Source: Microlunatus antarcticus
Lineage (GTDB): Bacteria > Actinomycetota > Actinomycetes > Propionibacteriales > Propionibacteriaceae
Reading direction: 5' to 3'
Assembly: GCF_014193425.1 (NCBI RefSeq)
Contig: NZ_JACHZG010000001.1
Coordinates: forward strand, 248,001 to 312,000
DNA length: 64,000 bases
Shown here: one piece after another, positions 50,368-52,533 of the stretch
Position numbering within the stretch: the first letter of the stretch is position 1
Layout of the letters: every line of letters begins with the position of its first letter
Translations under genes and position numbers: made by a program
The notes under the pieces: model-generated
The model's input: the letters and a program-made list of their open reading frames with translations, nothing else
Told to the model about the DNA's origin: nothing
Database searches by the model: none

Positions 50368-51534
50368 TCACTTGTCGAGGTCGCCGACGACGTAGCCGAC
50401 CGAGGCGAGCGTCGCCTCGATCGCGTCGACGGGCAGGCCGACGAGCAGCGGCTCGAGGGCGGAGACGTGGTTGAACGACGGCGTCCGCAGCTTGAGTCGC
50501 CAGGGCGTCTTGTCGCCCCGCGACACCAGGAACACCCCCGACACGCCCAGCGGCGCCTCGGTCGCGACGTACGCCTCGCCCTCGGGCAGGCGGACGACCT
50601 TGCCGAGCCGGACCGCGACGTCCCCGGGCAGCGAGCCCAGCCGCTCGACGCACGCCTCGACGAGGTCGGCGGAGACCCGGAGCTCGTGCACCAGCGTCGC
50701 CAGCCGCGCGGCCGCGTCGCCGGAGGTCTCCGGGCTCGGCACCAGCAGGTCGGCGAGCTCGGCGTACGCGAGGTAGGGCCGCTGCGTCCGCAGGTCGACG
50801 TCGAGCCCGCCGGCGCGCGCGGCCGGTCCGGTGACCCCGTGCGCGGCGACGAGCTCGCGGGAGAGGACGGCCGTCCCGGTGGTCAGGTCCCGCAGGACGG
50901 GGTCGTCGAGCCAGGTCCCCAGGCGGTCGGCGACGGTGCGGACGTCGGCCAGCACCGCGCGCTCGGCGTCGAGCCAGGCGGCGTCGGCGTCGGCGGCCAG
51001 CCCTCCGACCCGGTTGACCATCGGGTGCACCCGGTTGCCGGTCAGGTGCTGCAGCTGGAGCCGCAGCACCTCGCGCAGCGCGGCGGTGGGGGAGGGGACG
51101 CCCAGCCGGAACGGCACCCAGGCGAGGAAGCCGAGGTGGCTCAGCAGCCGCGTGTGCTCGGCGAGGAGCGTGCGCAGCCAGACGGCCCGCGGCGGGACCT
51201 CGAGCCCGAGCAGCTGCTCGCAGGTCAGCGCGACCGTGAGCTCGGCGGCGTACGGCGCCTGCCAGTCGTGCCGGTCGGCCAGCATCAGGACCTGGCGGTA
51301 GTCGCGGACCTCGAACAGCTTCTCGACCCCGCGGTGCAGGGCGCCGACGACCACCGTCGCGTCGCTGACGAGGCCGTGCTCGACCCACAGCCGCAGCTCG
51401 ACGAGCCCGGTGCCGCTCGGGTGCTCGGGCCCCAGGTCCAGCAGCACCGTGCCGGTCGGGGGAGGTTCCGTGGCCGAGGTCGGCAGGACGCCCGGCCCGA
51501 GCGCGCCGACGAGGACGCGCAGGGGGGTGGGCAC
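50368..51534 (-). CDS. NuoD-like (complex I 49-kDa subunit) paralogue, quinone-site residues lost
   Basis: A 388-residue member of the NuoD/hydrogenase-large-subunit family encoded away from any nuo operon. GPEHPSGTGLVELRL (residues 35-49), ALHRGVEKLFEVRDYRQ (65-81) and VYLVS-like GVFLVSRGDKTPWRLKLRTP are the family blocks. Counting against mammalian NDUFS2, the quinone-contacting His59 is replaced by Thr42 and Tyr108 by Trp91, with unchanged spacing. The arginine methylated in complex I (Arg85) is kept as Arg68. There are no NiFe-binding cysteine pairs. It therefore is unlikely to be a normal quinone-reducing subunit. It lies 9 bp from the end of the MidA-type methyltransferase gene on the same strand. 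Its function is unknown. Confidence 0.8.
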   Translation of the reverse strand: MPTPLRVLVGALGPGVLPTSATEPPPTGTVLLDLGPEHPSGTGLVELRLWVEHGLVSDATVVVGALHRGVEKLFEVRDYRQVLMLADRHDWQAPYAAELTVALTCEQLLGLEVPPRAVWLRTLLAEHTRLLSHLGFLAWVPFRLGVPSPTAALREVLRLQLQHLTGNRVHPMVNRVGGLAADADAAWLDAERAVLADVRTVADRLGTWLDDPVLRDLTTGTAVLSRELVAAHGVTGPAARAGGLDVDLRTQRPYLAYAELADLLVPSPETSGDAAARLATLVHELRVSADLVEACVERLGSLPGDVAVRLGKVVRLPEGEAYVATEAPLGVSGVFLVSRGDKTPWRLKLRTPSFNHVSALEPLLVGLPVDAIEATLASVGYVVGDLDK

Positions 51535-51543
51535 CGGCTCAGG

Positions 51544-52533
51544 CTAGGTGGGTGAGCCCTGCAGCAGCCACCAGAGGTCGCCCCACCGGTCGAGCGCGGT
51601 CAGGGCCGCCCGTTCGCTGCGCCGGACGAGCGCGCCGAGCGCGTCCGCCGGGGCGTCCGGCACCGCGGTGAGCACCTTCGCCTGCGGACGCAGCAGCAGC
51701 GTCGCCGCCCCGGTCGCCTCGCCCGCGGCGCCCAGGGCGTCGACGGCGACGCCGGCGGTGAGGTTGACCCGGCCGTCGGGCACCGCGGCCCGCTGCCGGC
51801 CCGCCCCGTACGCGAGGAACGTCCCGTCCGCCGGTCGACTGCCGGCCTCGTGGCCGTAGTCGACGGCTAGCGCACGGCCACCACGGCGTACGGCGGACCG
51901 GACCAGTGCCGCCCAGGCGACGTCGCGGGCCCGGCCCACCTCGGCCCGCCGGCCCTCGGGCCACCAGCGCGCCAGCCACGCGCGGTCGTCGGCCGCGGGG
52001 GCCGGGCCGACGCGTTCGTGGCCGTCGTCGTCGACCTCGACCTCGCGCCAGTCGTCGGCGGAACGTTCCACGACCGCGACGGGGAGGTCGTCCAGCCACT
52101 CGTGGGCGACCAGCAGCGGCGCCGCCCCCTCGGTCCACCCGTCGGGGCCGACCACCCAGCGCCCGGTGTCGACGTCATGGTGGTCCTCGACCCAGGCCAC
52201 CCGCGGGTCGAGCCCCGGCGGTCGCGCCCGGCGGTCGACGCCGACCAGCGCGACGTCCGGCAGCCGGTGGACCAGGTGGGACAGCAGGTGGCCGTCCCCG
52301 GCACCGACGTCGACGACGACCCGCCCACCCTTCGGCACCACCCCGGCGACGGCCTCCGCGACGAGCGGCCCGACGCCGACGCCGGTGCTGAAGTGCCCGC
52401 CCGGACGCTGCGTCGACCAGAAGCCGTCGGGCCCGTACGCCGCCTCCGTCCACGCCGCGCGCCAGGAGCGCCAGGAACCTCCCGTCCGCGACCCCGGCGT
52501 CGGCGCGGGAGCGGGCGGGCGATGGAGGACCAT
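51544..52533 (-). CDS. SAM-dependent methyltransferase, MidA/NDUFAF7 family
   Basis: A 329-residue class I methyltransferase. GPDGFWSTQRPGGHFSTG is the family's N-terminal region, VVVDVGAGDGHLLSHL the SAM-binding motif I, and PLLVAHEWLDDLPVAVV the MidA-type post-I block; RALAVDYGHEA and RVNLTAGVAVDAL follow. The eukaryotic member NDUFAF7 dimethylates an arginine of the complex I subunit NDUFS2. The next gene downstream here encodes a NuoD/NDUFS2 homologue, so that protein is the obvious candidate substrate (inference). ATG 52533 is the first usable start; it is divergent from nadB with almost no spacer. Confidence 0.83.
   Translation of the reverse strand: MVLHRPPAPAPTPGSRTGGSWRSWRAAWTEAAYGPDGFWSTQRPGGHFSTGVGVGPLVAEAVAGVVPKGGRVVVDVGAGDGHLLSHLVHRLPDVALVGVDRRARPPGLDPRVAWVEDHHDVDTGRWVVGPDGWTEGAAPLLVAHEWLDDLPVAVVERSADDWREVEVDDDGHERVGPAPAADDRAWLARWWPEGRRAEVGRARDVAWAALVRSAVRRGGRALAVDYGHEAGSRPADGTFLAYGAGRQRAAVPDGRVNLTAGVAVDALGAAGEATGAATLLLRPQAKVLTAVPDAPADALGALVRRSERAALTALDRWGDLWWLLQGSPT

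Follow-up and report, generated by a model that had tools for sequence, protein, structure and literature searches.

We describe here a pair of genes in a 64,000-nucleotide stretch of DNA from Microlunatus antarcticus (‘the window’, by which we mean the whole of the stretch that was analysed), encoding a NuoD-like protein assigned to a second complex I and a methyltransferase of the MidA family. The window lies at G000:C1:248001-312000; the two genes are separated by a gap of 9 nt and share the minus strand:

nuoD2, 50368..51534, minus strand: 388 amino acids from a GTG start; NuoD/49-kDa subunit of a second complex I (Nuo2), in the membrane-arm-less form of the Microlunatus-type genus.
midA, 51544..52533, minus strand: 329 amino acids; methyltransferase of the MidA/NDUFAF7 family (COG1565, PF02636), upstream of nuoD2.

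NuoD2 is a member of the complex I 49-kDa/NuoD superfamily, matching PF00346 at 153.7 bits (curated cut-off, 24), and the nearest folds to its AlphaFold2 model are complex I 49-kDa subunits, at a template-modelling (TM) score of ~0.8. The model has a mean predicted local distance difference test (pLDDT) score of 81.8 and a predicted TM-score (pTM) of 0.87, with low confidence at residues 66-73 and 89-92, the stretches that hold Arg68 and Trp91. The protein fails to reach the NCBIfam equivalog thresholds set for NuoD (244.6 against 360 for NF004739; 223.3 against 459 for TIGR01962) and, with two cysteines and no CxxC, has neither the N-terminal nor the C-terminal nickel-binding CxxC of a [NiFe] hydrogenase large subunit. 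MidA, in turn, matches PF02636 at 51.6 bits (cut-off, 23.3) and is the sole match to that family in the window's genome; its family profile recovers the structures 4f3n and 1zkd and the NDUFAF7 homologue 5ztz, and its AlphaFold2 model (pLDDT 89.3) lies nearest to the COG1565 structures 4g67 and 4f3n and the MidA structure 5ztz.

Quinone-site residues and the NuoD2 family

Three codons of nuoD2 are central to what follows:

Thr42 codon, 51409..51411, minus strand: site of the quinone-binding histidine (NDUFS2 His59); Thr or Ala in 15/15 NuoD2 of the genus, His in the others read.
Arg68 codon, 51331..51333, minus strand: site of NDUFS2 Arg85, in the second sphere of cluster N2; the proposed target of MidA.
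Trp91 codon, 51262..51264, minus strand: site of the quinone-binding tyrosine (NDUFS2 Tyr108); Trp in every NuoD2 read.

The original prediction had set these residues against His59, Arg85 and Tyr108 of NDUFS2 at identical spacing, and alignments to NDUFS2, Nqo4 and the genome's own NuoD all agree. Those made with phmmer to Thermus Nqo4 and mammalian NDUFS2 are gap-free between positions 42 and 91, with spacings of 26 and 23 that are equal in NuoD2 and the reference sequences; Thr42 falls opposite the second His of GPxHPxxHG, Arg68 opposite an Arg in the mammal (HRGTEK) and a Thr in the Thermus protein (HTGFEK), and Trp91 opposite the R-x-D-Y tyrosine. The His and Tyr expected of subunit D of an NADH-quinone oxidoreductase are therefore both missing. 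At the same three sites the canonical NuoD of this genome (G000:C2:86965-88380) has His, Thr and Tyr, and so is without the arginine that MidA would need.

Across 81 aligned relatives, Arg68 and Trp91 are each present in 81/81; at position 42, 79 have His and two (the window and Microlunatus flavus, L031) have Thr. The tyrosine-to-tryptophan exchange and the arginine are thus family-wide and the loss of the histidine is local, being confined to the Microlunatus-type genus. Of the 15 NuoD2 of that genus in which the region is present (the window, L031 and 13 further genomes; G013, a fragment that lacks it, is omitted, and L177, from the same genome as L031, is not counted again), 10 have Ala and five have Thr at position 42, and 15/15 have Arg68 and Trp91; the combined count for these two residues is 106/106 NuoD2 (77+15+14). 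The border between NuoD types can also be read from scores, in that G055 (376.9 bits) has Trp91 and 19/19 lower-scoring sequences read have Tyr.

A tree of 61 proteins separates canonical NuoD (13 rows) from NuoD2 (48 rows) with full support by the Shimodaira-Hasegawa-like approximate likelihood ratio test (SH-aLRT), and this grouping, together with Arg68 and Trp91, identifies the protein in the window as an actinobacterial NuoD2. The NuoD2 of the genus (15 rows) form one fully supported group that is placed with actinomycete NuoD2 and has a stem branch 1.19 changes per column long; the tree was made by a quick method with SH-aLRT as its only support measure, and several of the genus rows are of odd composition. 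Of 102 positions that are invariant in Nuo2 NuoD (77 loci, being 80 less L031, L090 and L099, the membrane arm having been verified in 16 of the 77), the genus keeps 61, while 11 are shifted (3 of them with the same majority residue) and 30 are lost or variable.

Linkage to MidA and the Nuo2 operon

Conservation of the pair, which the original prediction made a test of its case, is borne out. At 77 of 80 NuoD2 loci (the best 80 of 158 from a scan of genome contigs, all titled actinobacteria) a MidA gene occurs in the flanking DNA that was fetched, which reached up to 8 kb; it is upstream on the same strand in 76 and downstream and convergent in L078; two of the other three loci sit at contig edges, and the flank of the third, L090, shows no MidA. 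Within the Microlunatus-type genus, 16 of 20 genomes have NuoD2 and the same 16 have MidA, the remaining four giving no MidA match (three) or a weak one of 28% identity (G017). In a phylum-wide sample of 326 genomes MidA was found in 95, made up of 77 of the 112 with NuoD2 (365 bits or more) and 18 of the 214 others (Fisher p 7e-30, relatedness ignored), and it was found in 13/13 genomes whose NuoD2 scores at least 600 bits. These counts are the union of two queries, one being PF02636, each of which missed some of the other's matches, and the absences, among them the 35 of 112 NuoD2 genomes that gave no MidA match, come from a first-pass scan that scored few candidates. In the 77 genomes with both genes, the two are less than 15 kb apart in 50, farther apart on one contig in three, and on different contigs in 24.

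A strict requirement of Arg68 for MidA was considered but finds no support, given the arginine in 7/7 NuoD2 read (L126-L131 and L133) from genomes with no MidA match. These seven are Nuo2 operons of other classes, with an Arg-type NuoD, and constitute a natural control for the role of MidA. Genomes that have MidA and lack the NuoD2 type carry an Arg-type NuoD in 7/7 read (seven of 18 such genomes), and comparison NuoDs in the same score range, with no MidA match, also have Arg in 12/12. Separately, one other-class genome holds a 433-bit, actinomycete-type MidA (G298:C21:966023-966961), with its sole NuoD match below the NuoD2 range; this may be contamination or transfer.

Nineteen NuoD2 regions were fetched from the phylum-wide sample, 14 from other classes and five from the same class. 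Thirteen of the 14 other-class regions place NuoD2 between NuoC and NuoH, in an operon that has no NuoE, F or G; 12 of these operons are complete, with 11 genes (A-B-C-D2-H-I-J-K-L-M-N), and the fetched region stops within the thirteenth, L132. The suggestion that the pair belongs outside a nuo operon is not supported by this result, a complete nuo operon around the locus in relatives being among the outcomes that the original prediction had named as refuting it. Canonical nuo genes adjoin the Nuo2 operon in 10 of the 13 regions, and MidA follows NuoN in four other-class operons (L134, L135, L136 and L139). The fourteenth region, L138, shows just NuoD2 with a MidA in divergent orientation, and the five same-class regions have NuoD2 and MidA alone, with no other nuo genes. 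In actinomycetes the Nuo2 operon is found elsewhere and shows no D (L185, for example, reads A-B-C-H-I-J-K-L-M-N), so that nuoD2 there has departed from its operon and remained in the company of MidA, and nuoD2 is placed outside the nuo2 operon in the accessible parts of two accounts of Streptomyces (PMC3765725, PMC8388888). The portion of PMC9239103 available to us describes the nuo2 of S. coelicolor as being without C and L; unlike that account, the Streptomyces-type L185 has both NuoC and NuoL by homology.

Partner subunits and the membrane arm

NuoD2 had been taken for an orphan, and possibly a decoy, but partners for it are encoded at another locus of the same genome. Besides the canonical nuo operon (G000:C2, ~74-90 kb) there is a second NuoB-like gene, nuoB2 (G000:C2:42498-42908), which heads a mini-operon, given here in the coordinates of the region L113:

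nuoB2, L113:4496-4909, minus strand: first gene of the mini-operon; PF01058.
nuoC2, L113:3918-4499, minus strand: 4-nt overlap; PF00329.
nuoI2, L113:3598-3921, minus strand: 4-nt overlap; Fer4.

Of the 20 genus genomes, the 16 that carry NuoD2 and MidA are also the ones that carry NuoB2, and C2 and I2 adjoin it in all 16; G008, G009, G017 and G019 have canonical NuoB only. The N2 cysteines of NuoB2 (4/4) and the cluster cysteines of NuoI2 (8/8) are intact in 16/16 genomes. Measured against an 11-subunit complex I, the NuoB, NuoC and NuoI partners are thus present with their cluster ligands, and no separate set of the membrane subunits NuoA, H and J-N was found for Nuo2, although NuoA, J and K were not searched for genome-wide. 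The original prediction saw in NuoD2 and MidA a detached methyltransferase-substrate pair, with NuoD2 as a decoy or scaffold devoid of other Nuo partners; the linkage and isolation of the two genes in the window, and the standing of MidA as the genome's only PF02636 match, speak for this, and against it are NuoB2-C2-I2 in the same genomes, their intact ligands, a presence that co-varies with that of NuoD2, and the fit of residues around N2 set out below. We consider its odds poor. The orphan/decoy reading was dropped on the finding of NuoB2-C2-I2 and of full operons in other classes, and of the options once listed for a repurposed module, that of a non-quinone redox complex comes closest to the evidence.

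On shared contigs, the NuoB2 of the genus lies 34-78 kb from canonical NuoB in 10 genomes (G016 by way of a NuoB fragment) and over 1 Mb from it in G002, and the two are on different contigs in five genomes; complete Nuo2 operons lie ~49 kb (Streptomyces-type G147) and ~43 kb (Kribbella G347) from canonical NuoB. Given these similar distances, the mini-operon looks like the ‘stump’ of a complete Nuo2 operon.

The window's genome has one NuoH and no second (NuoA, J and K were not searched for genome-wide), and its antiporter-type subunits are in the canonical operon and at a second place, C1:983-987 kb, which is presumably Mrp. Over a survey of 51 entries (the 51st, G362, being the L031 genome), a Nuo2-type NuoH (321-347 bits) was found in 0/20 genus genomes and in 27/30 other NuoD2 genomes. 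The three exceptions, G081, G357 and G359, have B2, C2 and I2 with no intact NuoH or J-N in the region (L193, L194 and L195, respectively), and their NuoD2 (L123, L090 and L099) keep the quinone His; the records of G357 and G359 are metagenome-assembled, which makes the absences there less certain. At the nuoH place of the Nuo2 stump in L193 sits a 123-amino-acid NuoH2-like piece (L193:9929-10300; a 30.6-bit match), which is either a membrane arm caught part-way through erosion or a short membrane anchor. Two further genomes merit mention: G326 (L125, L192) has Nuo2 with no match to canonical NuoD, NuoH or NuoB, and so perhaps has Nuo2 as its sole complex I, and G003 has a third, distant NuoD/NuoH/NuoB set (G003:C14:71017-76457; 52.7, 118.9 and 31.7 bits), perhaps a group-4 hydrogenase cluster.

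The surroundings of cluster N2 link the two unlinked loci. As described in the accessible text of PMC8042128, the space next to N2 that is filled by the dimethylated NDUFS2 arginine is filled in Thermus by Arg83 of the NuoB homologue. Canonical NuoB has Arg at the corresponding site in 22/22 (the genome's own, L132 and 20 fetched; a 60-amino-acid end piece in L242 does not reach the site), with Thr in canonical NuoD in 12/12 plus L132; NuoB2 has Thr in 54/54 distinct copies (13 from other classes, 16 from the genus and 25 from elsewhere), opposite an Arg-type NuoD2. We take the NuoB site to be the G-R or G-T that follows a VVxG-type strand. Judged by these residues, the arginine at N2 has switched sides between NuoB and NuoD as a unit; the match ties NuoD2 to NuoB2, and not to canonical NuoB, even though their genes are unlinked, and it makes Arg68 the counterpart of the arginine methylated by NDUFAF7 in the mitochondrial complex.

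In the genus rows shown, and to some extent in L194 and L195, NuoB2 has a rewritten loop following its CC motif. We take this loop to line the quinone tunnel close to the membrane arm; the accessible portion of PMC3750175 is a partial source for that placement. This bears on a ‘hybrid’ arrangement, in which NuoB2-C2-D2-I2 would dock on the canonical membrane arm (NuoA, H, J-N), be fed by ferredoxin and still reduce quinone. Such an arrangement would suit a genome that shows a single membrane arm, and hybrid Nuo/Nuo2 machinery has been proposed for S. coelicolor (PMC9239103, in the part available); with the quinone His lost in 15/15, Trp instead of Tyr, the loop rewritten, and a NuoD2 stem branch that is long, as after a lost constraint, however, we think it improbable.

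The module is under purifying selection. The ratio of non-synonymous to synonymous substitution rates (dN/dS, by the Nei-Gojobori method, NG86) is 0.19-0.29 for NuoD2 (six pairs), 0.33-0.40 for MidA (three pairs), 0.10-0.23 for NuoB2 (four pairs), 0.23-0.32 for NuoC2 (two pairs) and 0.22-0.25 for NuoI2 (two pairs), with values of 0.12 and 0.32 for canonical NuoD; in the close pair NuoD2 evolves faster than canonical NuoD. A remnant decaying without function might be suspected from the lost membrane arm and quinone site, and from an evolution faster than that of relatives (the stem of 1.19), but ratios well below 1 for all five proteins in the pairs computed, cluster cysteines of NuoB2 and NuoI2 intact in 16/16, and a lack of internal stops in the listed NuoD2 and MidA matches of the genus largely refute it, and we give it next to no credence.

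Maturation, electron supply and known systems

Two residues of MidA may bear on whether it acts as an enzyme here:

MidA residue 144, 52102..52104, minus strand: His here, Asn in most relatives; in the NEWLD motif.
MidA residue 257, 51763..51765, minus strand: Asn here, Asp in relatives.

Asn144 and Asp257 are near-invariant in the MidA/NDUFAF7 family, and the genus has lost both: residue 144 is replaced in 13/13 distinct copies (by His in four, Val in six and Ala in three) and Asp257 is Asn in 14/14, compared with Asn144 in 66/74 relatives (His 7, Thr 1) and Asp257 in 74/74, as also in 5/5 from other classes (G013 and G014 are left out of this alignment, and L031/L177, one genome, is counted once). 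Methylation is hence not to be assumed. MidA could serve in this clade as a non-catalytic assembly chaperone for NuoD2, leaving Arg68 unmethylated, as is the Arg at the N2 site of E. coli according to the accessible part of PMC3750175; both replacements occur in all genus MidA read, and other classes retain Arg68 with no detected MidA. Then again, the genus keeps, in the rows that have them, the three glycines of VDxGAGxG as well as Glu145, Leu147, Asp148, Pro151, Asp225, Tyr226, Thr259 and Asp265, its MidA is under the constraint given above, and the link of Asn144 and Asp257 to catalysis is putative. We rate a purely chaperoning role as unlikely, though by no means negligible.

KorA-KorB, by recognised sequence motifs a probable 2-oxoacid:ferredoxin oxidoreductase, lie within ~10 kb of NuoB2 in 16/16 genus genomes, and in 13 of these the distance is no more than 300 bp; of 24 other loci, some of them cut by contig ends, 17 also show KorA-KorB in the region fetched, and synteny of nuoA-C with korA and korB in Streptomyces is in print (PMC13118837, in the part available). 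Dependence of KorAB on Nuo2 is not supported, since KorAB occurs in G008, G009 and G019, three of the four Nuo2-less genomes of the genus and the three that were examined, so that a ferredoxin donor is a reasonable guess and not a result. In the window's genome, nuoB2 and korAB are parted by genes for long, repeat-rich, secreted-type proteins (L113:4952-9967, or G000:C2 ~42.9-48 kb; DUF11-like by eye), which are not found there in the close relative G010 (L199).

We suggest that nuoD2 encodes a core subunit of Nuo2, accompanied by MidA, and that the genus has shed the membrane arm and quinone site of this complex, which survives as NuoB2-C2-D2-I2; we put the probability of this at roughly 0.7. 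At the level of sequence, the proposal draws on the family assignment, the split genes and their co-retention, the cysteines, the N2 residues, the lost His, the NuoB loop, the want of a Nuo2-type NuoH and the purifying selection. MidA, a probable assembly enzyme, would bind NuoD2 and (di)methylate Arg68, whereupon NuoD2 would seat on NuoB2 around N2; the resulting peripheral module would carry three predicted [4Fe-4S] clusters, N2 on NuoB2 and two on NuoI2. Reduced ferredoxin, probably from the neighbouring KorAB, would feed electrons to NuoI2, from which they would pass to N2 and then, at or close to what was once the quinone cavity, to an acceptor other than quinone. More tentatively, and at somewhat less than even odds, we speculate that NuoB2-C2-D2-I2 may be a soluble iron-sulphur oxidoreductase, matured by its own MidA, whose former quinone cavity now takes a new substrate that is not a quinone, and that similar shedding may have begun separately in up to three further lineages (L193, L194 and L195), with the His kept.

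Several points weigh against the proposal. Assembly of NuoB2-C2-D2-I2, and its donor and acceptor, are predictions; in G002, NuoB2-C2-I2 lies more than 1 Mb from canonical NuoB; and the genus genomes are 83-100% complete, such that the absence of a Nuo2-type NuoH rests on the agreement of 20. A distant NuoH-like gene (119-141 bits) does occur in G003, G005 and G017, the first two of which carry NuoD2, although we take these genes to be of hydrogenase type and not to track NuoD2, G017 being without it. To these may be added the two near-invariant residues lost from MidA, the Arg68 kept in the seven lineages read with no detected MidA, the possibility that the 16-versus-4 co-occurrence in the genus may reflect one or few losses, and KorAB in all three Nuo2-less genus genomes examined, whose neighbourhood with NuoB2 is maybe an old synteny.

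As regards known systems, the Streptomyces nuo2 (PMC3765725, PMC8388888, PMC9239103) resembles that of the genus in having nuoD2 outside the operon and no NuoE, F or G, and in their accessible parts these accounts mention no MidA neighbour; the function of nuoD2/nuo2 is called unclear in what is available of PMC9239103. Both the membrane arm of Nuo2 and the quinone His are retained in Streptomyces-type genomes, whereas the Microlunatus-type genus has lost the two of them. A menaquinone reductase likewise without an NADH module, for which ferredoxin- or pyruvate:ferredoxin oxidoreductase (PFOR)-type donors are proposed in the accessible portion of its description, is membrane-bound, whereas the genus form has no membrane subunits of its own. 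The mitochondrial NDUFS2-NDUFAF7 couple (PMC3829151, PMC8042128, PMC9006661, each in part) shares the same N2-adjacent Arg and the same methyltransferase family and fold, but has its quinone His and Tyr intact, whereas here the genes are linked and two near-invariant MidA residues are changed. Among the open-licence papers listed by our literature searches, we saw no report linking MidA to NuoD2 and none of a membrane-free Nuo2. With MidA linked to an Arg-type NuoD2, and Thr in the canonical NuoD, the genus offers a bacterial setting for the role of N2-arginine methylation (in assembly or redox tuning), and one in which gene deletion leaves the main respiratory complex untouched. Soluble [NiFe] hydrogenase modules are membrane-free assemblies of large, small and iron-sulphur (FeS) subunits related to NuoD, NuoB and NuoI, from which NuoD2 differs in its cysteines, as noted at the outset. 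Complex I is thought to have been assembled from just such a soluble, hydrogenase-like module and a membrane antiporter; if our proposal is true, this lineage would be reversing the evolution of complex I, keeping the FeS core whilst dropping the pump and quinone site, and would thereby provide a natural test of the core on its own.

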